Below, one piece after another: positions 40,001-57,900 of a stretch of DNA of 64,000 bases. This DNA is from Schistocephalus solidus. Its lineage: Eukaryota > Platyhelminthes > Cestoda > Diphyllobothriidea > Diphyllobothriidae. Made by a program: the position numbers and the translations under genes. The notes beneath the pieces are model-generated. The model saw only the letters and a program-made list of their open reading frames with translations, had not been told where the DNA came from and did no database searches. Numbering within the stretch: the stretch's first letter is position 1; each line of letters begins with the position of its first letter. The DNA is taken from contig WEDG01008947.1 in assembly GCA_017591395.1 (NCBI GenBank), positions 1 through 64,000 on the forward strand, given 5' to 3'.

Positions 40001-41775
40001 TTACAAGTGGTTCCCTTATAACCAGGATGTCATGGGCGAATCTAAAGTATTTGTCTACTTTCCACGTCTTGTGGTTTTTCTGCACGATAATTAATTTTAT
40101 AACCCCGCTTAAGTACTCGTTCGTAATCGAAAACGCATTTTATCCTGTTTGTTAACATTTCTTGAAATCGGTCACCGACTGTAGTTATTAACTAGTTATC
40201 CAGGCACATGATTGACTGATTGTTCTGCTGCTACATATGGCAACTGAGAGGACTTCGGCTCCTAAGAGCGTTCTCTATTCGGTTTCTAGTATATTATCTC
40301 CAGAGACCTAAAGCCGATGGTTTCAGGAATTATTAATGACAGGGCTTGGTGATAAGTTCCTGTTGCATAACTTTTTTTAGAGTCAGCCCTGAAATTCCAA
40401 CGAGCATTCAAGTAGAAGGCAATTAACTTCTGCGATATAACCGCATGATTCACATTTTACGGGGAGATATCACTACTAGTAACACTGTTAGTAGTATATT
40501 CGCATTCTATATACATCTATTTATGGGAAGAAAAATTTGATCTTGGCAACCATAGTTGTATTATCCTGGAGTTTTAAAAGCAGACAAGGTTCCATCGTCG
40601 GAGGTAATTGTGGTACCGCGCCTCACTGTATTTGTAGGTGGTCATAGGCATGTTAAAACGGGTTTACCTATGCTATTAGAGTGGTAGAGCGAAATGGCCG
40701 GTGGGTGGAGGAGGAGAGGGGAGATCCTCAATCATCTTGGCGACTGATGGGTTAGCGGTATTTTGGCTTTGGTAGTCATCGTTCGCCTGCGCACTGAACC
40801 AGGGGAAACGAGGGTGACGGATTGTTCTCAGTCTATGTGCCTCTCGCCTCATCTGTGCATTTGCGATAATCTCTCCATTGCCATCCACGATGGTCGTCAT
40901 TATCAAATTGTGATTGCAGTTCGGGCGCGGCGAAGAGCTTAGCGGTCGGAGTAAAGGTGGCCGTGAAGTCTGTTTTCTTCTGTTCTGGTTTTATTTCGAA
41001 TTGGGGTTTTGGTTCTACTGTTGCTTTGCTTGGGTAGGGGACTATCGCTTCAGATGGTCAAAGCCCATCTGTGTCCCAAACTTAAAGGGAAGTTACAGGA
41101 ATGCTATTAAGATAGATGTCGAATCAGTGGAGAGTATAGTTTTGGATGAATTGTTGCCTTGAACACTATCCATTGTGTTCAATGCTCCCCTGCCGGCAGC
41201 CCAAATTTATAGCCCGCTTCGTACGTCTTGCTGATGTCCAATCGTTAGTCCCCCGAGCCTCTCGGTTTTGTCAGGTGCTGGGGGATTGGAGACACAATTA
41301 TGTTGAAAACTGTGACGTTATCATTATTTGATGAGCGGTGTTTCGCTCGCAGTGGTTACCGTTTTTCGTGGTGTATTTTGAGTCATGGTGCTATTACTTA
41401 CCGTAAAGGTAATAAAAGCTTGTAGAATCCCCCCCCCCTTATATCATAAGATGATTCCTTCGATTACTGCGTTGGTCGTAGGCCTTACCAACTAATACGC
41501 CTATTGTTATTCAGTTACTGCAAATCGGTCTGACGCCGAGCATTCGACAGGATAAACGTCGCTTTGCCGTGTGGACGGCCAACCGCGCGCAGACGTACTA
41601 TTTTCAATCAGCCACCACCCTCGTTCGTACGCGCTGGGTAAATGCCATCAATGGTTTGTTGATGCGCCAACTGAAAATCCTACGTGAGGCCAGCCGATCA
41701 AGCCGCACCAACAGCTTTGCGGCCGACCACGAGCGTCACTCGCTCATGCGCTCAGAAACCACTGCCGACTTCTAG
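6421..41775 (+). CDS. Dbl-family RhoGEF, spectrin-like + DH + PH (MCF2L/PLEKHG4-like), 12 exons
   Basis: Predicted guanine-nucleotide exchange factor that loads GTP onto Rho-family GTPases at the cell cortex. Twelve exons give roughly 1,115 residues: helical spectrin-like segments (about 1-620), a DH domain (about 650-890) and a C-terminal PH domain (about 895-1100). DH signatures are AMAWEELLSTERSYVKFL (first conserved helix), NMVDLYSTYCRHYERA, and LSPAQRFQRYHLLLDRL (third conserved block). The PH part begins GRLLLQDKFTVW and ends with a tryptophan in RTRWVNAINGLL, the usual last-helix Trp. Exon phases fit except around the missing DH exon and an apparent indel at 19030. The best match by eye is the MCF2L/PLEKHG4 group; a Sec14 domain typical of that group is not seen and may lie upstream. 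The ATG at 6421 was chosen as the start of the low-complexity MSSSPP leader; an in-frame ATG at 6241 would add 60 residues of unlikely composition. Confidence 0.85.
8889..9056 (+). mobile_element. Zinc-finger 3' end of a flatworm non-LTR retrotransposon
   Basis: An open frame of 55 codons ending in a stop reads LRIHRTEAGEPVPGAPTYSH, then CPHCSRTFKHRMGLLGHMHL and HDNLR. This is a C2H2 finger (C-x2-C-x12-H-x3-H with conserved F and L) preceded by a GEPVPGAP linker. This tail is a recurrent ending of reverse transcriptase ORFs of the RTE type in tapeworm genomes. The upstream RT is absent, so the copy is strongly 5'-truncated, as TPRT elements often are. A normal zinc-finger gene is less likely because nothing coding precedes it. 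Confidence 0.7.
9150..9420 (+). repeat. Dispersed repeat family A copy (5' module)
   Basis: Starts with accgtggcttggaaggct and runs through ggactgggagtcag and cgcgcgaagacgggtacgcc. The part from about 9245 to 9405 is nearly identical to 56590-56745 in the same orientation, so the two copies are probably recent. It begins about 100 bp after the LINE zinc-finger ORF ends. Whether it is linked to that LINE as 3' sequence or is an independent non-autonomous element is not resolved. Confidence 0.65.
9600..9760 (-). repeat. Dispersed repeat family A copy (3' module, reverse)
   Basis: The reverse complement contains actaattcacgcacaagttg and a nearby cctcgtgg block. This corresponds to the actaattcacgcgcaagtcacc module of the family. 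Orientation is opposite to the neighbouring copy at 9150-9420, so two independent copies, or one folded-back copy, sit here. Confidence 0.5.
10262..10432 (+). repeat. Left arm of a roughly 170-bp inverted repeat
   Basis: This arm, with ggatgatgagaaactgtgtt, cgttctaggggaaaaggaag and gcatgcagttaagcgacc, is matched in reverse complement by 10692-10870 with only scattered differences. Weaker similarity continues outwards to about 10220 and 10910. The arms flank a reverse-transcriptase fragment. Confidence 0.85.
10412..10668 (+). mobile_element. Penelope-like element reverse-transcriptase core fragment
   Basis: The + strand frame reads ETGIPKNALNELNVQLLFDN, then QLYRQIGGVTMGLPLRPLLA and DVFVSKLAKFQLRDQI. 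This is the RT block GVAMGSPLGPLLADVF of Penelope-like elements, with a few substitutions. Upstream KIVDYLCEFL fits the same protein but runs into a stop. The YVDD catalytic motif that should follow is missing: the frame breaks at the right inverted-repeat arm. A dead, isolated RT core. Confidence 0.75.
10692..10880 (-). repeat. Right arm of the inverted repeat
   Basis: Reverse complement of the 10262-10432 arm, including gcatggtcagcggtcgctta and tcttccttttcccctagaac. The loop between the arms is about 260 bp and holds the Penelope RT core. Single-stranded copies would fold into a long hairpin. Confidence 0.85.
10985..11040 (+). repeat. Short dispersed repeat, first of a pair
   Basis: The run ttttagtcgcgtttattcat followed by gatgtgcaagtttttgtt recurs at 13940-13995 as tttttaatcgcgttcattca plus agatgtgcaagtttttgttt. 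Same orientation, about 2.96 kb apart. Identity of the element is unknown. Confidence 0.55.
11230..11990 (-). mobile_element. CR1/jockey-like LINE, RT-to-3' end fragment
   Basis: On the minus strand the order of blocks matches a CR1-type ORF2 from the catalytic core to the C-terminus: NFADDAKTLHSKMDNLS (active site FADD), STKWLLKFNVSKC, a VRKIFHVFARPHLDYG block (family: YVRPHLEY), KDIDLLGKVQHRTRRW (family: LLERVQRRATK), RGDLLCTFQII, and RRVVQPWNSLQSEMVTADT near 11290. Stops and frameshifts interrupt it, so it is inactive. Blocks appear at the expected spacing over about 760 bp. Confidence 0.85.
12095..12160 (-). mobile_element. Small Penelope-like element scrap
   Basis: The minus strand gives RLGFGIAHCPKAT, close to the LGVGIAHWPKA found upstream of the GIY-YIG domain in the Penelope copy at 27.4 kb. 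At the DNA level ggcagtgggcaattccaaaa matches ggccagtgtgcaattccaac near 27379. Only a few dozen bases align. Confidence 0.4.
12930..13060 (-). mobile_element. Possible CR1-like LINE active-site scrap
   Basis: Minus-strand translation gives PRGRPCS, a stop, then GQVLILVFYLADDVKDCEW. This can be aligned with the PQGSVLGPLLFLIY...FADDVK block of CR1/jockey RTs. The match is short and interrupted, so it could be chance. Confidence 0.3.
13940..13995 (+). repeat. Short dispersed repeat, second of a pair
   Basis: Partner of 10985-11040. It is preceded by degenerate GGATTA/GGGTTAG-type sequence (13893-13935), a style also seen near 47785 and 55777. Confidence 0.5.
16656..17124 (+). CDS. RhoGEF exon 2 (acidic, Gly/Ser-rich, helical)
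   Basis: Follows a CCACAG acceptor and ends at GTGAGT in phase 1. It encodes LKPLLGVWESLIESVNDFLP, a flexible acidic segment with a run of five glycines, then a helix typical of spectrin repeats (RVNEAQTSGAHLLEDIRELI, RLGEEIRQHF). A serine-rich tail follows (SDSTGSSDSFESDGS). The phase 0 start matches exon 1. Confidence 0.8.
18844..19195 (+). CDS. RhoGEF exon 3, with an apparent frame break near 19030
   Basis: Starts after AAAACAG in phase 1 and reads EEAREDLIRLAEPSVYEISP through SWEDAPGSPKR, then hits TGA at 19032-19034. Coding resumes in another frame (DGTSIFDSLPDFIGVRL, LNRLEELARDLLGKAADKLN) and ends IN-E at a GTAGGT donor in phase 0, which fits exon 4. A single missing base near 19031, or removal of 29 bases 19018-19046 as a mini-intron, restores one frame. 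I favour an assembly indel because the mini-intron donor GTTCAC is poor. Confidence 0.75.
19659..19682 (+). repeat. (GT)n microsatellite
   Basis: About 12 uninterrupted GT units inside intron 3 of the RhoGEF gene. No sign of function. Confidence 0.95.
19865..20068 (+). CDS. RhoGEF exon 4 (spectrin-like helices)
   Basis: Bounded by a CCCCAG acceptor and a GTATGG donor, phase 0 at both ends, 68 codons. It reads ARLWISESNAALAPFNSEKV then ECEAALAQLQQISAGRELNL and FRRQFSDLINADLK. The tryptophan near the start of a helix and the alternating charged/hydrophobic pattern are spectrin-repeat-like. Confidence 0.85.
20535..20760 (-). mobile_element. LINE (RTE-like) C-terminal RT remnant
   Basis: Minus-strand reading gives KMFARIKAASMVFAGLRRG, then TYRASVRSALTYRCECWAVR and AED. 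Flatworm RTE-type LINEs have RID.AR..F..LR...., YRASVRSVLLYGCECWALR and VED in this order. A 5'- and 3'-truncated fragment of about 75 codons. The same region in the opposite orientation appears at 29970-30590. Confidence 0.7.
21235..21745 (+). repeat. Dispersed repeat family A, nearly full copy
   Basis: Runs in the same order as the 57 kb cluster: ggtggtctgagagcaaggct, the cacgtgtgagccactcaacc block, gtgcttgtgttta, the gtgtttgtgtggagtgtctaac block, a tgagatccgagccaggcgtg block, and the tail gtgcggtagctgcagtgcaa with gcacaagtcaccgttcctgc. No open frame spans it. It may be a SINE or other non-autonomous element; I see no convincing tRNA-type A/B boxes. Confidence 0.65.
22485..22650 (+). repeat. 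Dispersed repeat family B copy
   Basis: Shares aagcacatgaggaacgctgg, a gagccgaacccctc block, a cagcggcaaaatatcggt block and ggacttttcgctagcacc with 51555-51700 (full) and 35955-36045 (3' part), all on the + strand. Function unknown; all copies lie in introns. Confidence 0.6.
23265..23580 (-). mobile_element. Possible LINE zinc-finger-region remnant
   Basis: The minus strand has an open frame of 103 codons with SRVTQARIHTGLLGHTTTSN, reminiscent of the degenerate finger (ARIGLVGHLRT) and Thr/Asn-rich spacer before the C-terminal fingers of tapeworm RTE-type LINEs. Without the cysteine pair the case is weak. Confidence 0.35.
24956..25132 (+). CDS. RhoGEF exon 5 (helix before DH domain)
   Basis: After a CTTGCAG acceptor, 59 codons in phase 0 read SELAQMLRSVEEVELNLTLT then TAALRQQISRHAFPLRPLPA, ending DPLE at GTAGGT. 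It probably ends the spectrin-like region and starts a Pro/Ser linker to the DH domain. Confidence 0.85.
26985..27480 (-). mobile_element. Penelope-like element C-terminus with GIY-YIG endonuclease
   Basis: Minus strand from about 27470 down: DVSEATERIVGRLGVGIAHW-like sequence (frames mixed), then in one frame GVVYRIPCLNCPCNDTGQTE, RIHEHKLVVRRGDELSQVAA, and after a frameshift FNFAAVKIIAHARNKTSRKF and ENSINRGIDLEPAYRAVRSH. VVYRIP...YTGQTE is the GIY-YIG-type nuclease core of Penelope-like elements, here with DTGQTE. The frame breaks make it inactive. Confidence 0.85.
27645..28185 (-). mobile_element. Penelope-like element RT, copy 1 with upstream fingers motif
   Basis: Minus strand: ISFDGTSLVTSIPPEEVYG near 28090-28030, then FEFYRKTYFKFAEETYEPIN, GTPVGSPISGFVAELILQEL and, in a shifted frame, RRYVDDTFAIVKKSMLQ near 27825. 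These are successive RT blocks of a Penelope-like element, with the YVDD catalytic pair present. Frameshifts and stops show it is dead. It continues into the GIY-YIG part at lower coordinates. Confidence 0.85.
28186..28610 (-). mobile_element. Penelope-like element RT, tandem copy 2
   Basis: A second, diverged copy of the RT palm lies head-to-tail with copy 1, offset about 542 bp: minus strand LRMLFNFCQKTYITFAGKTY, EQIKRTPMGFQSSGLVTEVV, then RRYVDDRFVIVRKNMLQ in another frame. DNA identity to 27645-28025 is visible at ttgttactgtgaaaactgag and cttcctgtagacc. It lacks its own fingers and GIY-YIG parts. Confidence 0.8.
29570..29740 (+). CDS. RhoGEF exon 6 (start of DH domain)
   Basis: Fifty-seven codons in phase 0 between a GTGTTAG acceptor and GTAAAA donor. 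After a Pro-rich linker it reads YAMAWEELLSTERSYVKFLQ then AVCE. This is conserved region 1 of a DH domain: the glutamate of E-L-L-x-T-E-R-x-Y-V contacts the GTPase switch in known family members. Confidence 0.9.
29970..30590 (+). mobile_element. RTE-like LINE RT C-terminal region, decayed
   Basis: Reads EVDSFNYLGVSLPPNGQSKD, DIVFRSDAACRLFSSLRRCL, then after stops SVLLCGCESSVV and KLEVFDYHNLRS, and later WLDTVRQDMEEFLRALSIRS. Flatworm RTE-type elements have this order of blocks (FxYLGxxL, RSVLLYGCE, KLEVFDHHCLR, WLDTVRQDME). Multiple stops are present; no zinc-finger tail follows. Confidence 0.85.
32512..32633 (+). CDS. RhoGEF exon 7 (DH domain, second segment)
   Basis: After CCTGTAG the frame reads VFSGDSTKVASSGLPPLPRG then IHDNRALIIVNMPDQLRFHR, ending in phase 2 at GTGAGT. 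The pattern NRALIIVNMPDQLRFHR fits the DH stretch corresponding to (V)IFGNIEELYxFH. The start phase 0 matches exon 6; the end phase does not match the next exon I can find, so one small exon is probably missing. Confidence 0.8.
32634..35215 (+). other. RhoGEF intron(s) 7, possibly hiding one small DH exon
   Basis: No element signatures are recognised in this 2.6 kb. A phase 2-to-1 exon that would supply the next DH helix (family pattern F-L-x-x-L) is expected here but could not be located; it may be only 20-60 bp long. Confidence 0.5.
35216..35253 (+). CDS. RhoGEF mini-exon 8 (38 bp, DH domain)
   Basis: A 38-bp exon between TTTCCAG and GTATTT. In the frame that joins exon 9 it reads SALAVDPKCLLE, directly continued by FSNMVDLYSTYC. 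The P-x-x-L-x-x-F spacing suits the DH stretch before F-x-x-Y-x-x-Y-C. Its start is phase 1 and does not join the phase 2 end of exon 7. Confidence 0.55.
35413..35798 (+). CDS. RhoGEF exon 9 (DH domain with acidic insert)
   Basis: Reads FSNMVDLYSTYCRHYERASQ, then QWMSQYNLYLHALES, an acidic/Thr-rich insertion of roughly 50 residues, and LSPAQRFQRYHLLLDRLRGY, which is DH conserved region 3. It ends GAEK in phase 2 at GTTAGT; exon 10 supplies the completing G. Most DH domains have no such long insert between these helices. Confidence 0.9.
35955..36045 (+). repeat. Dispersed repeat family B, partial copy
   Basis: The part acatgtgtccggacttttag followed by tagtacctgtgccgtcagta and tggtgaact matches 51645-51695 and more weakly 22580-22620. 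It lies in RhoGEF intron 9. Confidence 0.5.
36888..38089 (-). mobile_element. Mariner transposon, near full length, decayed
   Basis: Terminal inverted repeats of about 35 bp: TTAAGTTATTCGGAAAATAA (from 36888) pairs with the reverse complement of the segment ending 38089, TTAAGTTGGTCAGAAAATAC. Between them the minus strand encodes a mariner transposase in broken frames: RYSGRPYTLDNKLLKAIVEE-like N-terminal part (GSGRPYTLDNK), IGKTKKLDQCIPYE, TVTCDERWIIYDNRQQSGK (first Asp), FPKPKIYMWKAMVTV, GPILLHDSAQPHI (second Asp) and LSHTEYHFF, where the third catalytic Asp is Glu. Length about 1.2 kb, close to the 1.3 kb typical of the family. It sits in intron 9 of the RhoGEF gene, opposite strand. Confidence 0.9.
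38701..38782 (+). CDS. RhoGEF exon 10 (last DH helix)
   Basis: Starts after TTTCGCAG; its first G completes the Lys codon of exon 9. It reads ECLSQAHQEMVDLCTTVNNL then MRIAVLP, ending phase 0 at GTGAGT. This is the long final alpha helix of DH domains, which packs on the PH domain. Confidence 0.9.
39471..39893 (+). CDS. RhoGEF exon 11 (PH domain with long low-complexity insert)
   Basis: After TTTTCAG, 141 codons in phase 0. It begins GKPSRLGRLLLQDKFTVWLD, HQRHVFLFENAILLTKVR (PH beta strands), continues with about 80 residues rich in Ala/Ser/Thr/Pro, then IYDIKMEIS, the next PH strand, at a GTAGGT donor. The PH fold is therefore split by a disordered loop. Confidence 0.9.
39894..41514 (+). 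other. RhoGEF intron 11
   Basis: No transposon or gene signature recognised in 1.6 kb. A purine-rich segment near 40690-40720 and a run of ten C at 41430-41439 stand out only by composition. Confidence 0.55.
41515..41775 (+). CDS. RhoGEF exon 12 (end of PH domain and stop)
   Basis: After TTATTCAG, phase 0: LLQIGLTPSIRQDKRRFAVW then AQTYYFQSATTLVRTRWVNA and INGLLMRQLKIL, ending in a short Ser/Arg tail and TAG at 41773-41775. The invariant PH-domain Trp is in RTRWVNA. The LT...FAVW...YYFQ pattern matches the second half of the PH domain in MCF2L/PLEKHG4-type GEFs. Confidence 0.92.
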   Translation, partial: LLQIGLTPSIRQDKRRFAVWTANRAQTYYFQSATTLVRTRWVNAINGLLMRQLKILREASRSSRTNSFAADHERHSLMRSETTADF

Positions 41776-44700: not shown

Positions 44701-44877
44701 TGCCAAGGAAGTTCGTGGTTTCAGGGGTCGTTATCAATGAATTCACCTACACTTGCGCTGTACCCTAAACGCTCCTAACATGTGCACACGGATAATCTCT
44801 ATGTTCTCTCTTCGCCATTCTCACTACATTTTTCTTTCAGGTCGGTTTTCTCACCAACGGCGAGTATCTGTGTATAC
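41776..44877 (+). other. Intergenic region between RhoGEF and snapin
   Basis: About 3.1 kb without a recognisable exon or element. A possible poly(A) signal AGTAAA lies 40 bp after the RhoGEF stop; no canonical AATAAA is close. A pyrimidine-rich stretch at 43.2-43.6 kb could be promoter-proximal DNA for the next genes. Confidence 0.5.
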
Positions 44878-45148
44878 ATGTCCCTAGGCCCTGATGAAAC
44901 GGTCAATTCGCCCACTCTAACCGAACCGGTGGAATCAATTTTCAGTGACTCGACCGCCGCCCAGGTGCACGAAACTAGTTTGGACCTCTCTTCGGGCTCT
45001 TCAGACTCCATTGAGCGTCAACCGCATTCTTTAGCTAACTTTTTTGCCGGCCTCCTACGCCCCAGCTTTCAGGACATCGACGTTGCCGTGAAGGCCTGTG
45101 CGGCCAGTCAAGGCAGTTTGCAGTCCCTTCTGGAGCGCCTTTCTTTTG
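44878..45148 (+). CDS. SNAPIN: Snapin exon 1
   Basis: Encodes MSLGPDETVNSPTLTEPV onwards and ends ...LLERLSF plus one base (phase 1) at GTGAGG. The conserved coiled coil starts at LANFFAGLLRPSFQDIDVAV. Upstream in-frame sequence is open to 44782 but looks like pyrimidine-rich non-coding DNA. Confidence 0.78.
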
Positions 45149-48100
45149 GTGAGGTCTGCTCGCTCATTTGGTCCGGTTCTGCTCCCCTGAAGTCTCTCTA
45201 CTGCCTTGTCCTTTTTTTCTTGACATCCACCTCGGTCTTTGTTTATTGGTCTCATAGCTTGAAATCTGAGAGTGTCTTGAATTACCTCGACATGTGAGTG
45301 GAAACAAAGATCAGCTAAATTTACTAAAAGCCAATGACCTGGCTAACTCCATAGCATGTTTTTTTCCCAGCAAAGTTACGCCAGTTAAACGCGAAGCCAC
45401 TTTTTCCCACAGTCACTTGAATGGTAGTCGCAACTTCAATAGGCGAAGATACCAGCTTTGTTCGCCCTTCTATTCCATCTTCTGTCAATGCACTTGACCT
45501 CAACTTCTTAGGTGAATCCCATAGCGGAATAACAGGCCGCGCAGTAGGGGGGTTTAAGCTGGTCTATTCGCTTCTATGTTTACTTCTTTAGGCTGGCTTT
45601 CAGCTGTTACCCGACTTTCCGAGGGGATCCACCATGTGTCCCCAAGCCTGGTGGGCGCATGGACGGTGATTTACGCATAATTTAGTTTGTAGTGATAATA
45701 GCGCATCTAATGCACTGCCCCCGTTCTCTCCCAACCGCGGACCCTATGTCAAGATGGAGTCAAGGCAACCGGAAATGGGGGGAGGGCATAGGTCACTGGC
45801 ACATCGGAAGACCGCACCTAGGCTTGTCACCAGGCCGCCCCCATGTCCAACATCGGTTTTGAGTGTGCACCCTCAATAACACCTGCCAGGCCCTGATCTA
45901 GCCCCTTTATTAGTCCAGCGCATCTTTCGCCTGGCCCATTTAGGGGAGACATTGCTGACCCACCACCCATATGAGTAGGGTGATTTGCCGGCTGAAAATT
46001 TGTGCTGTGATATGATATGGGCTGCCTTAGCGCAAACTACACTTGCCCGCTAGTGTTTGTACAAGCTCTCTGTCTGGATTTGATTGCATGCCTATTTGGT
46101 ATCCTCGCCACCTCTTATGCCTCCTCTCGGCAGTTTTAAGGGCCTGTGTTCCTAACACAGTCAATACTATGTTGTTTGTCCTCCCAGAAGCTCTCCCGAT
46201 TTCCATCTAGCCTGACCAAGTAATCCTCTGTGTGCATTTATGCACAGAAGTTGCTTCATTACCGTTCCTGAGGTTTTGTACTTTCTATTTTCCCTTAAAA
46301 ATGTGAAAACCCCCACCCTCTCTGCTGCCCTGATTGGTAGCCTCTGTATTTGCCACGCTGCTAATGCATGAGTGCTCGTCTTCCTGGAACAACTAGTAGT
46401 GTCTAGTGACCTTGTGAGGCGTCACTATTTTCTGATGGAACCTCACGCATATGAGCCAGGGTCCCTTGTTACTCGAGTCCTTATCGAAACGGACCCGGTT
46501 GTTATAGTGTCTGTAGTCAGCATATTTTCCTCTGTCTCTCTCCTCGTCCCTCTCCTGCTCCCGTCGCCTGGTCGTCTCCCTCGTGTCCCTCTCGTCCTCC
46601 TCCTCCCTCCTCCTCTCCTCCTCCTCCTCGAGCCATCTATCTATCTATCTATCTCTCTCACGCATATATGTAATCTGGTGCGACATTTGCACGGCGAGTA
46701 TTTTAAACGACGTCTCTCTCTCTCTCCGACTCATTGTGGGGTCTGTGTAGACTTGTGCGTTACATTGTGGGATACTGCGATCCAGTATTCTGTATTCCGT
46801 CAAGAGGAGCAGTTAGTAATCTCTATTCTTCTCTGTTTACTGGGGAAAGTAATCCATCGCCTCTGGTGAATTCAGAAAACGCATGAGGCTGTCAAGCACA
46901 CGATGGTAGTGCTACTAACTTATTTTGTGCCCCGAAAAATAAGCAGCGTAGGGGTCGATTTCTGGCTGAGGTTCCAGATTTTTGCGATTGCCTGTTTGTG
47001 CTTCTGGAAAAACGTTTTACGCTCCAGATGTTAAAAAATTTCGCATTGAGCGTGAAACTCATATGAATCTGATGGTTATCGCCCGTGCTCGGTTTAGTAG
47101 CCATCTTCATATGTCCGTTTAGGAGGTTCTTTGAAATTGAACTTTGTCCCGTCTTAAAAGCCTGTTACATTACGCACCCAGTAAATTTAAAACGTTCGGC
47201 GAATGTTTTTTGTTCGGATATCTACCTGTGTGAAGCACCCCCTTGTGGCAGAAAACCAGCGATACTCCTTTGTTTAATTCGCAATACGGGCTTAACATCT
47301 CTGTTGAAATTAGCATACTGTTGTTTCGTATCTTGAATTCCTTAAGGTATTTTAACCCCAACCGTAAGCAAAGTTTGATTTTTCCTTTCCGGTTCTCATG
47401 GTCTTACGCGTGTTCCTCTTGTGTTTTTCCCACTTTACAGACCTTTCCAGGCTTCTGCAAGTTATTCCTCCACCCGTTGACCTGGCCGAATACGTTCAGA
47501 AGCTGAATTGCGCCAAGGCTCGCATCACCAAAGTCTATAACCAGCTACAGAGTTTGCAGGTAACTCATCTTTTTGATACTGACGTTTTTAGAGCTCTTCC
47601 ATTTGATCCCAGCACACCAGCTCTTATCTTTTGACAAATAACGAAATTGCGCTTCCTTGATGAGTTGCGTTTTCGGCAGCCAACAGTAGCGTTATTTTAT
47701 ATGGCCGTATACCGGCAGGACAGAGTATTAGCAACATCACGCAATACAGTTGGCACTGCGCCATCTTCGAGGGAAATAAGGATTAAGGTGGTAAAGCTGG
47801 TTTAAGGTAGGCCTACGGTTAATGTTTGGATTAGGACGCGGAAATGGGCACCCTTCCTAAAATCTTGCTCGCCACCACCGGTATAACCGGGGCGGCAGGA
47901 GCGTCCGTATTCTCCTCCCCTACCGGAGGCGAAGGCCACATACGTCAGTTCGGCCGTTCGATGAAGTCCACCGTGTACTCCACAGCACGGTGATACAGGA
48001 ACGGTAACTTGCGCGTGGATTAGTTTTGAGTGATAGAAGACTTGCGCTGCTGCTACCGCGCTCTCTTCCCTCACCCGTTTGTGTCCGGTGTCAACAAAGT

Positions 48101-48537
48101 CAAGAAGACCGGAGGCAGGGTCTGAGCCAGGCGTGGCACCAGACACGAATTTCTGTTAGTTTTCCCGCTCGCATTTGATACTGGACGCAAGGGCTCATGC
48201 AGAACTATCTAGCGCCGCCTCATTCATTCTTAGGGGGTTTTATAAAGGAGCCAAATGTTTTTCCTCAGCTAACCTTCTGCTTTCCTCAACATTCATTGAA
48301 GTCTAATAGTAGTACTTATATTGGTAATTGTTCTAGTATTAGTCCCGTTAGTTGTAGTTGGTGCTTTCTTTTAGGAGAAAAATATAAATTATACCATGAA
48401 TTTTCTTCATAACACGTTTTTATTTTTGCATTCATTCGTTCCTAATTTACCACTACCGGTGCATCCTCCAGGTTCGTGTGCGGGCTCTGGAGAGCCGTCT
48501 TTCGTCTAATCCGTCAATACAGACTACTTCAACTTGA
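44878..48537 (+). CDS. SNAPIN: Snapin homologue (BLOC-1/BORC subunit), 3 exons
   Basis: A small coiled-coil protein of 151 residues. Snapin is a shared subunit of BLOC-1 and BORC, acting in lysosome-related organelle biogenesis and lysosome positioning, and binds SNARE proteins. Joined exons read AGLLRPSFQDIDVAVKACAA, SQGSLQSLLERLSFDLSRLL, VDLAEYVQKLNCAKARITKV and YNQLQSLQVRVRALESRL. This aligns without gaps to the human snapin core (LRPAVQQLD..., DLDPYVKKL-NARRRVVLVNN). An acidic, Ser/Thr-rich N-terminus of about 55 residues replaces the shorter human one; the C-terminus is shorter. Splice phases agree at both junctions. The ATG at 44878 is the last in-frame Met before the conserved part and follows a CTTTCAG that could be a splice acceptor at 44840. 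The stop lies one base before the flightless-1 ATG. Confidence 0.8.
45600..45870 (-). repeat. Dispersed repeat family A, diverged reverse copy
   Basis: Reverse complement contains gactccatcttgacataggg, a ggggcagtgcattagatgcg block and tatcactacaaactaaatta followed by tgcgtaaatcaccgtccatg, corresponding to the gactctgtcttgacaccggg ... gtgcggtagctgcagcgcaa ... actaattcacgcgcaagtca order of the 57 kb copies. Confidence 0.5.
46535..46656 (+). repeat. CTCC-rich tract and (ATCT)n microsatellite
   Basis: Low-complexity CT/CTCC sequence leads into about five ATCT units at 46634-46655, followed by CT repeats. Confidence 0.9.
47441..47559 (+). CDS. SNAPIN: Snapin exon 2
   Basis: Acceptor CTTTACAG; the first two bases complete Asp with the last base of exon 1. 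Encodes DLSRLLQVIPPPVDLAEYVQ and KLNCAKARITKVYNQLQSLQ, ending phase 0 at GTAACT. The D-L-x-x-Y-V-x-K-L-x-x-A-x-x-R motif is the most diagnostic snapin stretch. Confidence 0.85.
47810..48145 (-). repeat. Dispersed repeat family A, reverse copy in snapin intron 2
   Basis: Reverse complement includes gtgccacgcctggctcagac, ccggtcttcttgactttgtt, ggtgagggaagagagcgcgg, tcaaaactaatccacgcgca and agttaccgttcctgtatcac. This is the tail module of the family with high similarity. It lies between snapin exons 2 and 3. Confidence 0.7.
48472..48537 (+). CDS. SNAPIN: Snapin exon 3 (coding end)
   Basis: After CCTCCAG, 22 codons in phase 0 read VRVRALESRLSSNPSIQTTS then T and TGA. The coiled-coil continuation (V-R-A-L-E-S-R-L) supports the junction. 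The exon does not stop here: the same uninterrupted DNA becomes flightless-1 coding sequence in another frame from 48539. Confidence 0.78.
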   Translation, partial: VRVRALESRLSSNPSIQTTST

Positions 48538-48538
48538 C

Positions 48539-48989
48539 ATGGCCGCTACCTCCGCCTCTTCCTCTAAGAGCGTGACTCAGTTCCTACGAAGCCTCGATCT
48601 CTCTGGTGTGGACTTTGGCGCAGCCTCGCAGCACGTAGCCTCCTGCGCTGAGGTCTCCGGTGGAAGCCCTCTGCGACGCAGTAAAAAGAAAAAGCTACTC
48701 GAGGCCGCTTCCCAGGTCTTTCCATCTACGATGCCCCTCGAAAGGATGTCACGCCTGGAAACTCTGAAACTACGTGATGCTGACCTCTCAGATGGGGAAC
48801 TGCCCAGCCAGCTCGCTCACCTCAGTCGTCTCGAATACCTTTCCTTGGCCAAACAAGCTGACCCATCTCACCGCTATAACCGACTGGCCAGCCGTCTTTC
48901 CGCGTCTGAGGGTGCTCAACTGTCGCAGGAACGCCCTCTCGGCTGTTGATTCCATACCCTCAGATATCTTTGAATGTCCCAATTTGCAG
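48539..48989 (+). CDS. FLII: Flightless-1 exon 1 (LRR 1-3), frame break near 48852
   Basis: Reads [31 protein letters not shown], a Ser/Lys insert with [25 protein letters not shown] and [11 protein letters not shown]. The frame then shifts by +1: [20 protein letters not shown] and [12 protein letters not shown] follow in the next frame, ending phase 0 at GTGCCT. The LRR pattern L-x-x-L-x-L-x-x-N-x-L implies two A residues are missing within ggccaaacaag at 48849-48855. Confidence 0.85.
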
Positions 48990-51900
48990 GTGCCTATTCT
49001 TTTCATGTGCTTGCTTTAGCTAGTAAAGTATCTAGCAGATATCAGAATCGTGACTAAAGTAGACGTTCGTTTCAGCAAACAAACTAGCTGATAAGGCTGC
49101 CAATTTTATCCTAGAGCTTCGCGTCCATGTGCTTCGAGGGGGGGGGGGAAGCGAAACCTTCGGACCTAGAAAACGCTCTAATTTGATTTGGCTCCTGTAA
49201 TTTGCCGCCACCTCATAGTCTGCACTAATTTTTGAGTATGCTCAAAACACTGTAACTACTTGCAACACTGTTTTCTGCCAGTAGGTACATTGCCGGAAAG
49301 TCTAATTTCCGAAAGCAGTTGAGGAGGAAATGTGATCACCGGATCAAGAGTTTTGTTTACCTGACGCTCCGGATTCTCACTCAAACTTTTCTTCAGAGAC
49401 AGTCGGAAATATGCAGTTTTAATCTCTAACTATGCGGTTTCCCTTTTTATGTCATATCCCCTTACTTTCTGATGTAAATAAACAATCGGTTTTTAGGAGT
49501 TGAATTAATAGCCTACAGACATATAAACGAGTGCACTGATATTGCTTAGGAACCTATCCAGCTTGCAGAACTGAGGCGGTGAGTAAGCTAAATTTTTGTC
49601 AGGTGAAAGGAGCGCTGTATAATGGCCAGAATTCTTATAGTTCTTCATGTCATATTAGCTCTCTCAGTCACTCAATGTGTTCCATGTTGCGCGTAAAGTG
49701 GCAGCCTACAGGCCGTCGAAACTTCTCGTCATTAGCATGCTCCCCTGCTTATCCAGTAGTCTCTTGTCTTTTCCCCGTCTGTCGGTGTTCTGTGCAAACA
49801 GTGCAGTGTTGAGGAATTTCTCTGTTTCCTTGACACTCAGATGGATTCTTCAGTCGGCCTCTATTATTTTGTCAGCCCTCTCCCCGCTCACCGGTCGTTT
49901 TCTGTTCCCGTCTATGCCCTTGTAGGTGATCGATTTCAGCTGTAACAACCTGACTCGAGTGCCTCGTGGCATCGAAAACGCCTCTGGTCTCCTTGTGCTA
50001 AACCTCAGTGAAAACAACCTGACAGCTATTCCAGAGGAGTTGTTTGTGCAGTGCACGAATTTGATGCTTTTAGACCTCTCAGATAACCATCTGCAAACCC
50101 TGCCTGCCCAGCTGCGTCGTTGCTCTTCCCTTCAGCAACTCATCCTCAGTCGTAATCCCCTTCAACACTATCCGCTGAGGGCAGTCGCTGCCATAAGCAT
50201 CTTCAGGCAAGTCGTCTTCGTTTTGGTCTTCTACGTCACCCCCCTTCTCTACCCCTTTACTGGTATGCCGTCTCCAAATCTTGTTACTCTTGAGCTGACT
50301 TGACAGTGCGCTTGGCGGAAACACCATATTCCTCGTTTTAGCTTGTCTGGTATTTTTGCCTGAGGCGTTTTGGTTATTTTCAGGTTCTACATCTATCCAA
50401 CACTCAGCGCCGCTTGGACAATATCCCCAGTGAACTGGACCGCCTTGAGAAGCTTGTTGACTTGGATCTATCCGAAAACCAACTTAACCGGATCCCTGAG
50501 CCGGTTTTTCAGGTTTGTTATTGCATTATCTCTTTCTTCTCTGATTTCAGTATGTTTTAGTTTATTTCGCGCCGCCGTTTAAGTTTTGCCCTCTTGATTT
50601 TGCTCTTTGTTTACTTTACGACGATAACCTCCCTCCTCCTCCTGCGCATTCACTGTGCGCTCGATGACCGCTAACTAGTCGCCTTCATCGTTGTCGCCCT
50701 TAACACGTGTCCATCTGTGCTAACGGCTGGTTTTTTCAAACGTAGATGCTTCGGTTGGGACGCTACGCAACTTGCCCATCTCGGTTACTCATTCCTTCAG
50801 ACTTTTGAGGACTAATAGGTCCTCTCTTGTGCAATTCGCCTGATAAGTATCAGTTGACTATCTTTTATCGAGACATCAGTGCGTTTGCGGTGTGATTTAG
50901 CAGTCATACTCTGCCCACTTACCTACTCCTTTGAGAAATTTTATTTGGCACTTGCCAATATTGCATCGTTTGGTGCGTTGCTTACTTTTGCATGCCTTCT
51001 TTTAGCTGCGTTCTCTTCGTAAACTGGACGTCAGCCGAAACTCCATCACTGACCTCTCAATGCTCACCGACAATTGGCCCAACCTCGAGTACCTAAACCT
51101 TAGTTTTAACCAACTCCTCTGTCTTCCCTCCGGTCTAACGCGACTTACGAAGTTGCGCAAACTATATATCAACAATAATCAGCTCAAATTTGACGGGATT
51201 CCATCGGGCATTGGAAAATTGAACGATCTCGAGGTGTTTGATGCAGCTCACAACCTTCTGGAAAACATTCCGGAGGGTAAGTCTTGCACCGTATCCCTTT
51301 CCTCACTCTCCGCTTCTGTCTTGATCTCTCACTCACTCACTCACTCACAAACCCTATACTGTCTCTCATTTGCTTATACGTTTTGAAAATTTTCTAATTT
51401 CCTCGGAAATTAATTGTTACTTCAATCACATCACTAGGAATTGAACTTTATCAACTTTCGGACTTAGTCTATAAAGCTTAAGTTCGACTGATTTACCTCA
51501 AGTCAGTGATAAATTCCGGAGAAAATTAAAAAACTGCAATTTTGAATCTGGTGTATCTATCAGTAAGCACGTGAGGAACGCTGGGATACCCATTGATGGG
51601 CCGAACTCCTCCCAGTCGTGACATTCAGCGGCAGGATACCGGTTAAACCCGTATCTGGCCTTTTATCTAGTATCTGCGCTGTCAGTATGGTTTACCATAT
51701 AACCAATGTTTCCCTTTATCTGCATGCCTTGTTTCACCTCCTATTCTAAACCGATGGTGAATCCAAAAAAGGCGTTTCAATACTTTTTAGCTGATGCAAG
51801 AAGGGATACCGACAGCAACTTAAACCTAGCCAACACGAGACGTAATTTCGTAAGTTCTTCCTGCTACTGCAGTTTCGAGGATGGTTTGAACTAGGGAACC

Positions 51901-54900
51901 GAATCGGTACCAGATTTTTTCCCCATCGCTCCCCTTCCCCCACCCTGACAATCGTATAATTTATTCTACTTACCTGCATATTTGACTTAGTTACACAGTG
52001 ATATAAATGTAAAGGCCTGATGAGAATTTATCGAAGGGTAACGTATGCTTGCCAAATTGTCTTTTGAATTTCCAAGTATGTCGCTGCATCCGAGGCAGCT
52101 CGTCTACCCGGAAATCTGCCAGTGCATGGGGTAGTAAGTATGCAAACTGTTCTGTAATGGAGTCAATCGAACTGATCATCGCGTATTAGGAGGTGAGCAA
52201 TATTCCTTCACAGACAGCGGTTGAAACGGTGCACTTCGGACCGTGTGACGAGCAGTTCTGTGACTTACTTCAGCGGCAGTTGGGCGTGTCCCAATGAGTT
52301 GAGAGTGACTGGAGCGCTAGAGTGTAATGCGTCGGCGAAGCCATTCACTGGCCACAACGTAGTGGCAAACCGTTAGGCAGATTTTCAGTTTTCCCCTGCT
52401 AAACCGCTTGGTCATTACTGACCCCCCCCCTCTGCTTACCTTTAGTCCAAGGGACCTTTAAGCGGCCACACTCGAGTGCATGCTTGCCCAAGTCAACTGA
52501 AACATTTTGGTGTTGGCCTGATGCCGACGCTGTCAGTAAGAATAGCTCTGACCATTTGCGTGTAAGGACGCTCGACAGTAGCTCGTGGCATGTATTTTCA
52601 TGGCATGTTAAGAACTTTAATTTCAAGGATTCAAAGTGGCCTGTCGCTGCCAAGGGTTTCCTTGTAACTACCTCCTCGGTATTTGAAACATTGATGCTGA
52701 TGACGATCTCCGTTTTCCAGTGAAGCCAACTGACTCGAACTGAAGAAAAACCTTTCCGAAAAATCTCTGAGTAATTCTTAGATCACAGCGACCTTTTTCG
52801 AAAGCAGGTAATCTCCGGCGAACCGCATCTCTGGATTGATATTACAGCGGGTGCCCCCTGTTTGCAACTCCCGTCCAGAGTAGTGCTTCGTGAAACCTTG
52901 TGCCCTATATGATATAACGGTGAAAAATTTCGACCCTAGAACTGCTCAAGACCCTTCACGGGTTTCAACCGACTGTGGCTCACCCCCGCTCTGCGCTGGA
53001 TGTCCTTATACGATATTGAATCTGGAGGACAACAAGTGCATCTCCATCTTACTAGCTGACTGCTTGCACGACATTCTGAGGGGACGTGTAAGCGAAAGGT
53101 GTGCCCGAAAGTTGGAACAACTATACTGACGCCGGTATTCAAACGGGGCTCCAGATCCATTTGCGAAAAATATCGTAGCCCAGGTCTTCTTGCCACTACT
53201 GGTAACTGCAATCATCCTCTCTGATTGTGTATGTCTGCGCTCTGCCATGTAGGCACACTTTAGTCCGATCCCGCCTCTATTCTTCTTGACCATATTGACC
53301 CCGGTCACAGATGGGTGAGGGAAGAGGGAGTGCGGTAGCTGCAGCGAAAGTCTATCACTGAAAACTAGCCCATGCGCAAGTCACCATAGTACAAGTGACA
53401 TTGATGGGCTTAGTAGTGTGGTGTGGGGTTGGTCTATTAGCTTGGTAATCCCTCACTGACGCCTGTCCTCTTTTTTCCGGTGTGAGATGATAACTCATCC
53501 CCATTCTTCGTTCTCCGAGCTTGGGATGCCGACGCCAGTTTTTGAAATAACAGTTTGGCTGTCGTGGTTGCTTTTCCGTCGTTGTTTTTTGGCCCCGAGA
53601 CAGGCATTTCCTTCTTCAGCCTCGGCTATTCCAGCATACCATATCTTCACAGGGGGTATATATGTCGTTAACCCCTTTAGAAGACACTCTTGCTCGTGGT
53701 CCAGAAGCAATCTCCCCTGTTTTCAATATTTTCAGCGCATATGGTATCTTTGTCATGAAGTAACCATGACTGCCAATAATCGGTTATTTTTCTTTGCCTC
53801 AGTATCTTAAAGTCTCGCTGCCTCTATCACCACTTGTGTATGGAAAAACTTTCTTATATTCCAGACTGTTATTTATCATCTTTGGGCCTATCAAATTTTT
53901 TCGGCTTCACCTGTGACATTTTCCAACGCACCGTGAACGGCATTCGTCTACAGTAATTATAAGGTTACCTCACTATGGGTACCCAAGCCACTCCCCCTCT
54001 TTTCGGTTTAGAAATTTGGTCGGGGGGTTTCACTTCTGTCAGTCGTTGACTTCCAACCCGCTCTCTTTCTAGCCATTGTGACTATGATATGTAGAGTTCC
54101 CTTTACTTTTCTTCTCCTGAAATCCTTGATGCTCCTTACATATCACAAAATATGGGATACTGCAAAAGCTCCCAGTTCAAGTTTAATCAGTTAGTCTAGT
54201 CAAGTATATATTTTTCACTTCTAATATCCTAGTCTATGCAACATCCTGCCATCTCATACGACAGGGATGGATGCATCGTTTTCCTTCGCGGCAGAGACAT
54301 AGCAGAACGGAAGAGGACGTTGCAGGCAATAATAGCTACCAAAATAACTGCTCTCTCTCATCTTGCCTTTATGTCTTGGATTCTCAGGCAATCGACATCA
54401 ACTTGGGTATTATACCTGAAAACAACCCTTCTTTGTTGCTTCATACATCCGTACGAGATCTTTCGGTTACCCTGGGAGTACCTGAATAATGTGAAATGCT
54501 GTGTTCTCTCAAAGTTCTTATGTGCTCATTACGAGGCAGTTTTCGAACCAGACAGATAAATATCCATTTATATTAGACGTCCACGAGGTTATAATTTTTG
54601 ATAATCAGAGTGCAATACCCGGGGGCACCCGTTTTTAAATGTCTAAAGTTATCACAGGATTTCAAGTGACCAGTAAGACCTGCTGGTGGTCCTGTGCACT
54701 TCCACCGATCCCATTACCTCGTAGCAGCCTTGCTGCTGCTACCCTAATGGATCAGATTGCTATACTCCCGCATTTAGCCATTCCTCCTGCCTTCTGAGGA
54801 TTCAAGCTTCACCTTTCTCCTCAATTAGCCCTAACCAACCCTTCTTCCCTCTTCACCTTCCAGGTCTCTGCCGGTGTGGTCGACTTAAACGACTTCTGCT

Positions 54901-57900
54901 CTCTTCTAACCGACTAGTAACTCTTCCCGACGCCATCCACTTCCTAATCGAGAATCTAGAAAAATTTGACGTTGAGGATAACCCAAATCTTCGCTTCCCG
55001 GAGAGGCCGGCTGCCCTACAGAAGGGTGCTGGCAGTGCCTTCTATAATATCGATTTTTCTTTGGAAACCCAGCTTCAGTTGCTGCGTGGTGGTCCACCCT
55101 CGGATGCGGCCTCGGAGGCCAAAAATGCAAAGGTATTCTGCTCTTCCATCTAAAAATCACCCAACAAAGAGTCTTGGGTGAAGCAACTGTATCACTTTTT
55201 TGACTTGCGCAATTTTCGTCTCATGAAGTATATGATAATCTGGTTACGGTTTTGGCTCCTATTTCTGGGCATCCGCCCCCTCCTCTGTCGCCTTTGCAAC
55301 CACCTAATTATTCCCGAGGTCTTTTGTCCGTGCAAACAAGACATCTTTCAGGTCTCCTCCCTCCCCGTGTCTCTGAACCACGAGGTCGCGCTTTGCTGTG
55401 TGCCCTGAAAACCCTTGTCAATTCAGTTACGCCCTCTGCAAACCTCGTTACCTGTGCCCTCTTATTTGCGCGCATGTTTGACCTTTCAGGACACTGCTGC
55501 ACGCATTCGCCGCCTGCGTCGTCGTCGTTTCGATGGCAATGTCAATGACAAAGACAGTAGCGCTGTGCTGGCTGGCATGCGTCATGTGGCCAACGAAAAG
55601 GAAGCCATTATGCGTAGAAGACATGAGGACGTGGCTGAAGAGGACAAACAGATCTCGGCCAAGCGCTGGAAGGACGCTCTGGCCAAACCAAACCTGGACT
55701 ACAGCGAAATTTTTGATCAGGTATTTAAGCTGTCCCTTTTCGCTTGTTACTTGGCCGAACACTGTTGCAGACTGTCAGGGTTAAGATTAGGCTTGCTGTT
55801 AACTGTAGTGTTAGGGTTAATATTAGGACTATGGTGTTAGCTAGTGTTGGGGTTAGGACACGGGATATGTACTCGTCATGGAATTATGCGCAGAGCCACT
55901 TTTATTAATTTTGCGGCGCTTTCCTTTTCCCGTGTCGGGGCCATATAAGTAGAATGAACTTACCGACAAAGCCAAGGGAGACTCGAATGGCCATTTCTGG
56001 CTTATTAGCTGTCGTCAGTCCGCCATGCTCAACATCAGGTGGTGCCATATGAGTAATTCTTACAGAATTGGGTAGTGCTGTAGCTTTCCAAAATGTATAC
56101 AACGCATCTCTAACCGTTGCTATGATCAGTAGCGTGCTTTGTCGATTTATCAAGCATCACCATCCACTTCTCGATGGCCTACCTATTCATTTCTTCCGCC
56201 TAGCTTCCAATAGCCTCTGTCAACCGCCGAATAGTGGGTCATCGTGTATTTGAACCTGGTATGGCCCAGCCTGGTACTTCGATGTCGCACGAAGCGTATG
56301 CTTGATCTACGGTTGTCCAAACCCCAACGCGGTAGAGCAAGAGAACGCGATCAGTTAAGTGGAAAAGCTGCGTCTATATAGTGTCCCGTTTTGATTGGTC
56401 ATGTTCTGTCCAATCCACGGGACGCTGTCGTGCACGCTTTCATGGCATGCAGCACGGAGACGCGCGCACTTGCTTTTCCACGAGGCCGACATTCCCAACA
56501 GAATCCCAGACACTGGGTTGGAGAAAGCTCTATAAGACGTAAAACTCCGGACAAACCGATGATTGTTTGTGACTGAAAGTGTTGTTCATATGTGGACTGG
56601 GAGTCAGACGGCGATGGCTGCTCCATATCCCCTGAGTTAGTGAATCCTGGTGTGTGCGTTATGGGGCCCAGGTCGTGCTGTGGCGCGCGAAGACGGGTAC
56701 GCCGATCCAACAGCCAATGCGCCCACTCCCACATCAGACAACTAAACGGCTCGGACAGTGGTCTGATTGTGGGGGTGGGGAAGAGAGTGAGGTCGAGAGA
56801 TCAGCGTTTTTTCCTCACTATAAACAATCTGACGCGCTTGAAACTATCACGGGGCGCTAAAAGCCGTGGCTTGGAAGGTTGCCAACTGACGGGATTACTC
56901 GGACCGCGTGGTCAGCCCAATGTGTGTTTTGTGTGGAGTGGCTGACTGGCGGACGGAGCGTGAGGCTGCAATGGCTTCTTCTTAATGTGGCCTTTATGGC
57001 ACTCCCACTCTGTGGGATCCGAGCCAGGTGTGGTGGTACGCCCAGGGGCGGCTCCGGCCGCACCAGCCACCTGCGCCCTCTCCCATCTCCGGTCTTCTTG
57101 ACTGTGTCATGAGACCGGGCTCAGGTGGGGGAGGAGAAGAGAGTGCGGTAACGTTGAGTGCCGCGGTTGGAAGGTTGCCAACTGACAATTACACTTAGAC
57201 CTCGCAGTTAGTCCAATGTGTGTTGTGTGGAGTGGCTGACTGGTGGTCTGAGAGTCAGGCTGCGATGGCTCCTTCTTAACGTGACCTCTAGCTATCTCAC
57301 ACATGTGAGATGTAAGCCGTTCAACCCCCTGTTGTGTGAAATCCTGGTGCTTGTGTTTGGGGGGCCAGGTCGTGTACGTAGTACACGTAGACGAGGTCAC
57401 CAGCAGCTGCGCCCGCTTCCGCATCAGACAACTGACCGGCTCGGACAGTGGTCTGATTGTGGGGGTGGGGGAAGAGAGTGAGGTCGAGAGCTCAGCGTAT
57501 TTTCCTCACTATAAACAATCTGACGCGCTTGAAACTATCACGGTGCGCTAATAGCCGTGGCTTGGAAGGTTGCCAACTGACGGGATAACTCGGACCGCGT
57601 GGTCAGCCTAATGTGTGTTTTGTGTGGAGTGCCTGACTGGCGGACTGAAAGTCAGGTTGCAATGGCTCCTTCTTAATGTGGCCTTTATGGCACTCCCACT
57701 CCGTGGGATCCGAGCCAGGTGTGGTGGCACGCCCAGGGGCGGCTCCGGCCGCGCCAGCCACCTGCGCCCTCTCCCATCTCCGGTCTTCTTGACTCTGTCT
57801 TGACACCGGGCTCAGGTGGGGGAGGAGGAGAGAGTGCGGTAGCTGCAGCGCAAGACTACTATCACTTAAAACTAATTCACGCGCAAGTCACCGTCTCTGC

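Follow-up and report, generated by a model that had tools for sequence, protein, structure and literature searches.

Operons resolved by spliced-leader (SL) trans-splicing have been surveyed in 24 species of flatworms, including Schistocephalus solidus and Spirometra erinaceieuropaei, and by the criterion of this survey they comprise two genes on one strand lying at most 300 bp apart; the prevailing view is that such operons are resolved through trans-splicing in the intergenic gap, and cis-splicing is reported to be very rare at these operon-resolving sites (PMC12582326). In S. mansoni, at least 5 bp are reported between the transcripts in all 45 of the analysed operon pairs (PMC12582326), and one example of a gene pair of this kind is that for cytochrome b-c1 subunit 7 and enolase in trematodes (PMC12582326, PMC3254664). 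The consensus reported for flatworm SL sites is UUNYAG and, with few exceptions, the flatworm SLs end in AUG, the survey on this point again including S. solidus and S. erinaceieuropaei (PMC12582326). Outside of the operon-resolving sites, the use of one acceptor for both cis- and trans-splicing is described as widespread; the proportion of SL sites showing any cis-splicing has a species mean of 66%, the lowest value (20%) being that for S. erinaceieuropaei (PMC12582326). Chimeric gene models are a known trace that flatworm operons leave in annotation (PMC12582326). The intercistronic distance can be even shorter in other animals, and in the operons of Ciona its reported median is 1 bp (PMC7986045). 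Within the portions of the operon literature covered here, no description was found of a flatworm pair having its acceptor ahead of the stop codon of the first gene.

An exon shared by snapin and flightless-1

The window examined in this work, viz. the whole 64-kb stretch of S. solidus DNA (64,000 nucleotides), contains on its + strand the genes for snapin and flightless-1 (FLII), whose coding sequences are separated by 1 nt and thus lie well within the 300-bp spacing used for flatworm SL operons. The TGA stop codon of snapin (48535-48537) is followed by a C and then by the ATG of FLII at 48539 (...ACT TGA C ATG G...), and the sequence in this regard confirms the first-pass annotation, which had placed the stop and the start one base apart in the same exon. 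As to the homology which it noted for both frames, the snapin frame matches the Pfam family PF14712 and FLII is 99% identical to the protein P0002 over the 420 residues searched. The shared exon (48472..48989, + strand), consisting of the terminal coding part of snapin and the first coding part of FLII, is based on the sequence and on a tblastn search with P0002. In describing this region as a single exon, the first-pass annotation was correct in that the end at 48989 agrees with P0002, but the part from 48539 to 48989 is not one open frame: relative to P0002, a frame discontinuity of one base is seen at about 48853-48860 in FLII exon 1, and a second one-base discontinuity is present at about 50190-50198 in the next FLII exon (exon 2). 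Intact copies exist for both of these discontinuities, which are in all likelihood errors in the assembled sequence; they restrict the description of a single exon only in so far as an uninterrupted frame is meant by it, and the stop-start junction is unaffected by them. The last exon of snapin is the first exon of FLII, and it is a real shared exon.

The snapin gene has three coding exons (44878-45148, 47441-47559 and 48472-48537), which when joined form one open frame of 151 codons with GT...AG introns. The first of these (44878..45148, +) begins with an ATG in the weak context TACatgT and has its donor GT at 45149; it is preceded by a 5' leader (44841..44877, +) lying behind an acceptor, TTTTTCTTTCAG (AG at 44839-44840), which matches UUNYAG and may possibly serve as a trans-splice or a cis acceptor for snapin. 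The second exon (47441..47559, +) has its donor GT at 47560, the same junction at which the snapin part of the S. solidus gene model P0004 ends, and it is followed by intron 2 (47560..48471, +; 912 nt; GT...CTCCAG). A dispersed repeat is present inside this intron (47938-48125), and its copies, which are 74-81% identical, are also found at 57778-57963, 53264-53385, 57087-57150 and 839-914. The third exon (48472..48537, +) encodes the C-terminal 21 codons and the TGA stop, and its assignment draws upon a gain in profile score and upon the pattern of silent sites in comparison to the Spirometra model P0003 (see below). The assembled protein scores 54.6 bits against the Pfam profile PF14712 Snapin_Pallidin (cut-off 29.6), which it covers from position 3 to 88 of 89, in comparison to 47.7 bits when exon 3 is left out and 47.8 bits when intron 2 is read through instead, so that exon 3 adds 6.9 bits. 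A SNAPIN homolog of solved structure (9tqb_F) can be aligned with residues 54-141 of this protein and, as exon 3 begins at residue 131, this alignment covers the first eleven residues encoded by it. Based on the gain in the profile score and this alignment, the tail encoded by exon 3 looks like a real part of snapin.

In comparison to P0004, 1 of 130 residues of the snapin in the window is different, and the snapin model assembled from the window is 86% identical over 87% of the query to P0001 from Dibothriocephalus latus, the end of which reads past exon 2 (SLQVSHLVDTVALF). The D. latus protein was the sole match in a search for snapin proteins that yielded 63 candidates, and it was again the sole match among 285 candidates when E values up to 10 were allowed, no orthologue from outside the Diphyllobothriidae being retrieved in either search. 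Upstream of snapin, pieces of a Rho-GEF-like gene with an SOS1/NGEF-type PH domain are found on the + strand (39450-39959 and 41482-41772), the second of which scores just under the Pfam cut-off and is separated from the ATG of snapin by about 3 kb. No matches to Rfam families at gathering scores and no tRNAs were detected in the 64-kb window.

The first coding part of FLII (48539..48989, +) starts with an ATG in the strong context GACatgG and is followed by exon 2 (49926..50206, +), encoding leucine-rich repeats, after which the intron appears to be of the GC-AG type with the donor CAG|GCAAGT (50204-50212). Further FLII exons on the + strand, placed by tblastn of P0002, by acceptors and by Pfam matches, are found at about 50384-50515, 51006-51278, 54864-55150, 55490-55720, 58456-58872 and 62945-63491. 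These exons encode leucine-rich repeats followed by gelsolin repeats (Pfam LRR and Gelsolin) and are closest to annotated flightless-1 proteins; the gene continues beyond the window, within which only the first gelsolin repeats are contained. P0002 (1460 residues) begins with the residues predicted for a start at 48539, and the successive exons within 48539-63491 account for its residues 1-866. As these residues alone span nearly 15 kb in the window and the contig encoding P0002 is only 5136 bases long, this contig is too short to contain the introns and it is most likely a cDNA. P0002, which is the only RNA-like evidence at the snapin-FLII locus, places the sequence from 48539 onward within the transcripts of FLII, and it is silent on what lies further 5'. 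In the alignment of 16 of the 17 flatworm-like proteins retrieved, the similarity of flatworm FLII starts at SVTQF/AVVQY (48568/48569 in the window); the residues ahead of this motif are variable and of low complexity, and the models from S. spindalis and Trichobilharzia start directly at MAVVQY. An FLII intron also contains open reading frames at 58862-59350 and 60489-60920 (+), which are similar to each other (...VYKI...YCGQTGK...HTLDTGH...), as well as pieces at 59434-59824 on the - strand. We take these frames to resemble a Penelope-like element, and the four pieces of them that were tested gave no Pfam match at an E value of 0.001.

The snapin frame and the gene pair in Spirometra and other flatworms

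The relatives of FLII were examined among the best 120 of 1917 matches, proteins of roughly 475-1510 residues, and among these both of the named Diphyllobothriidae models, viz. P0004 from S. solidus and P0003 from Spirometra erinaceieuropaei, are chimeras of snapin and FLII. A Snapin domain is precomputed for P0004 and none is listed for P0003. Of the other named flatworm FLII models retrieved, which include those from cyclophyllideans and flukes, 0 of 12 are fused with snapin, one of these (P0019) being partial at its N-terminus. P0003 contains snapin exon 1 (its residues 32-132 are 85% identical to 44845-45147), then exon 3 read in the FLII frame, and then FLII. However, as this model omits much of snapin exon 2 and its exon starts before the position of the acceptor corresponding to 48471, its splice structure cannot be trusted. 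P0004 contains a partly repeated segment (...AKNAK twice), suggesting a local duplication or an assembly problem in its contig.

The FLII-frame translations of the window and of Spirometra can be aligned without any gap over the 24 residues that lead from the splice-junction arginine up to the methionine of FLII (RFEYGLWRAVFHLIHQYRQHPLSM in Spirometra), with 8 residues being different. The bases for Spirometra were deduced from the P0003 protein by choosing the codons closest to those in the window, a procedure which cannot register any change that is silent in the frame of FLII. All 7 of the 7 unambiguous single-base differences found in this tail fall at third positions of snapin codons and are silent in the snapin frame, so that in the shortest codon solution, in addition to which other solutions exist, all 21 snapin residues are identical between the window and Spirometra. 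With a null silent fraction of 53/135 for visible single-base changes falling at random, the chance of seven in seven is the seventh power of this fraction, about 0.0014, this being a rough null that assumes equal rates. The eighth difference can be solved in two ways of the same length, and while the first places a TAG exactly at the position of the TGA, the other gives no stop. When random codons were used for the Spirometra peptide, the snapin frame was open over the 21 codons in 42% of the cases and in 2.3% it also stopped in place. In the FLII exon proper, which serves as a control, 6 of 95 residues differ between the window and P0003; four of these six differences are single and unambiguous, 1 of the 4 being silent in the snapin frame, and the other two are ambiguous or multiple. 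The constraint thus seems to pass from one frame to the other at the TGA-C-ATG boundary. These results strongly suggest that the snapin frame is conserved in Spirometra up to this boundary, and conservation of the shared exon between the two genera is probable. The first-pass annotation had proposed a comparison of synteny in other tapeworms, and the same adjacency is indeed seen in Spirometra over the 24 gapless codons, as judged from the predicted protein P0003.

Expression of the two proteins

The acceptor that completes snapin ends at 48471 and FLII starts 67 bases downstream from it in the same exon. As this acceptor lies upstream of the stop codon of snapin itself, one pre-mRNA cannot yield both full products separately, and each pre-mRNA must either go one way or carry both reading frames. 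All of the AGs present from 48400 to the FLII ATG are found at the last intron of snapin or within its coding sequence, and the arrangement for textbook resolution of an operon, in which the stop and the poly(A) site of the first gene precede the SL acceptor, is not seen. It follows from this geometry that such resolution is only possible with an early end of snapin in intron 2, or with the use of a site beyond the FLII ATG, that at 48568 being an example. The acceptor at 48471 (CTCCAG) matches 2 of the 3 scored positions of the flatworm SL consensus, and UUNYAG is matched by 8 of the 9 acceptors of the two genes that were examined in the window for reference. Two other candidates are present on the + strand, viz. 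ATACAG (48521..48522), a pattern match inside the snapin tail that agrees at 2 of 3 scored positions, and TCTAAG (48567..48568), a predicted site after a pyrimidine-rich tract, agreeing at 1 of 3. The site at 48568 fits the junction in P0004, and an SL AUG joined there would be in the FLII frame.

The suggestion of the first-pass annotation that both proteins are expressed from one pre-mRNA stands as regards co-transcription, which is well supported, albeit indirectly, by the shared exon, by the silent-site pattern in Spirometra and by the chimeric nature of both named Diphyllobothriidae models among the 120 matches. The two routes which it named, viz. dicistronic translation and a dual cis/trans use of the 48471 acceptor, are both possible. 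As to how this pre-mRNA is processed, we consider it plausible, although short of probable, that snapin and FLII form one Diphyllobothriidae transcription unit in which cis-splicing and SL splicing compete at the 48471 acceptor. Processing would then be an either/or choice at this acceptor. Cis-splicing from 47559 to 48472 would complete snapin, and the resulting mRNA would carry both reading frames unless it is ended early within FLII intron 1, where an AATAAA (49477..49482, +; a pattern match) could mark the 3' end of an mRNA for snapin alone. Trans-splicing of the SL to the 48471 acceptor, or to a nearby one, would instead give an mRNA for FLII. Since flatworm SLs end in AUG, an FLII mRNA formed at 48471 would open with a minicistron of 22 codons made from the snapin tail, for the SL AUG placed at 48472 would share the frame of snapin and not that of FLII, and this minicistron would end one base before the FLII AUG. 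The further proposal that a splicing switch pits snapin against FLII, with FLII being made from the minicistron mRNA by termination-reinitiation, is more tentative and we regard it as a possibility of a rather doubtful kind. The 66% mean share of SL sites with cis-splicing speaks for a dual use of the 48471 acceptor; however, its sequence CTCCAG in place of UUNYAG, the rarity of cis-splicing at operon-resolving sites and the value of 20% for S. erinaceieuropaei speak against it, and the spacing of at least 5 bp in all 45 analysed operon pairs of S. mansoni likewise argues against the reading based on competition. The remark in the first-pass annotation that a functional pairing of the two proteins would be notable finds no support; the S. 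mansoni genome paper, in its account of polycistrons, saw no functional pattern in them (PMC3254664).

Of the other explanations, the one that survives best is a dicistronic mRNA, in which snapin and FLII are both translated from one spliced mRNA, the latter by leaky scanning or reinitiation; it is possible, but we hold it to be doubtful. It has a precedent in flies, where 159 dicistronic pairs are annotated, with both products of 45 of these apparently being made only from dicistronic transcripts (PMC4528330). It is also favoured by the TGA-C-ATG spacing, by the weak context of the snapin ATG and the strong context of the FLII ATG, and by the presence on the modelled mRNA (from 44843) of a single other AUG between the two starts, located at 44894 in a weak context and opening a short reading frame. 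However, the scarcity of AUGs in the snapin coding sequence is within the range of synonymous shuffles (P 0.64 and 0.21) and is thus not significant as a sign of leaky scanning, and the RNA structure around the junction is not unusual (z +1.28). Further, reinitiation is usually poor after a reading frame of 151 codons, and the searches for snapin retrieved no such protein from the source of P0002, a slight point against this explanation, as the calling of reading frames in that source may differ.

It is also conceivable, though unlikely, that FLII has a promoter of its own within snapin (in intron 2 or earlier), with a 5' exon or an outron being spliced to 48471. Internal promoters that create outrons are described in the literature on flatworm SLs, also for other cestode genes (PMC12582326, PMC5832876), and the 912-nt length of intron 2 and the dispersed repeat which it contains are in keeping with this; however, no candidate for a 5' exon of FLII was found. 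Less likely still is an ordinary operon, in which snapin would end early through a poly(A) site in intron 2 and FLII, from the same pre-mRNA, would be trans-spliced to the SL at 48471. The D. latus protein P0001, by reading past exon 2, is in keeping with such an early end, as are the weak poly(A) variants at 48241, 48381 and 48383, but these are the only signals seen in intron 2 (47560-48471), which contains no AATAAA, ATTAAA or AGTAAA. The tail of P0001 also fits with a missed donor of the GTAAGT type, although it could represent a real early end. This explanation is made less likely mainly because exon 3 behaves as a part of snapin, raising the profile score and showing at its silent sites the pattern that would be left by conservation of the snapin frame.

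The view that snapin and FLII form a true fusion protein, with exon 2 joined in frame to about 48569 as in P0004, is very improbable. P0004 indeed runs from ...YNQLQSLQ straight into FLII residues, and use of the AG at 48568, which lies behind a pyrimidine-rich tract, would preserve the frame, but this protein is a gene model with odd segments, such as a partly repeated exon, and it omits the snapin tail, whereas P0002, from a transcript-like contig, retains the residues ahead of 48569; the in-frame fusion is probably an artefact of prediction. Lastly, an artefact of assembly or annotation can be almost entirely dismissed, for despite the likely errors to which the two one-base discontinuities in nearby FLII exons point in this sequence, an S. 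solidus model from a contig of other size and the Spirometra model keep both genes together and P0002 is unbroken over 48539-48853.

Comparison with known operons and dicistronic pairs

In terms of its significance, the snapin-FLII locus has no gap and its acceptor is needed for snapin, so that the solution usual in flatworm operons cannot give both full proteins from one pre-mRNA. The locus is a small experiment of nature, in which it can be tested whether dicistronic mRNAs are tolerated in flatworms or whether competition for an acceptor is used to fix the ratio of two proteins, and also what role the AUG of the SL has where the main reading frame lies in a different frame. It further serves as a warning that automatic annotation merges gene pairs of this kind into doubtful proteins. 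In the open-access literature that was searched no mention of a snapin/flightless-1 pair was found, and published lists of operons may well include it; the one paper there in which both snapin and flightless occur is a review on Chlamydia. What is new here is a shared-exon variant of a flatworm operon or of a dicistronic pair, with a mechanism of expression that we infer.

The locus resembles the flatworm SL operons in having two unrelated genes on the same strand with minimal spacing, in belonging to a phylum with SLs, and in a chimeric annotation, as is sometimes seen for such operons. However, it differs from them (at least 5 bp in S. mansoni) in that the acceptor is upstream of the first stop and an exon is common to both genes. 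With the zero-gap operons of Ciona and those of the SL1 type in C. elegans, it shares the feature of having practically no intercistronic sequence (PMC7986045, PMC12582326). In those operons, as described, the SL acceptor comes immediately after the poly(A) site (PMC12582326), whereas here it is the stop that nearly abuts the start, and the upstream coding sequence runs past the acceptor. Similar to the dicistronic pairs of Drosophila, some of which overlap in different frames, two full reading frames are present on one mRNA, which in the present case is putative (PMC4528330). The tapeworm lineage possesses SL trans-splicing, which flies are not known to have, so that a second route exists in it. 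The locus is also similar to that of Su(var)3-9 and eIF-2gamma, where distinct proteins are made from one locus by alternative use of common exons (PMC4528330). However, as this case is described, Su(var)3-9 and eIF-2gamma have the N-terminal coding sequence in common and read it in one frame, whereas the exon shared by snapin and FLII is the end of one reading frame and the start of the other, and the two are read in different frames.
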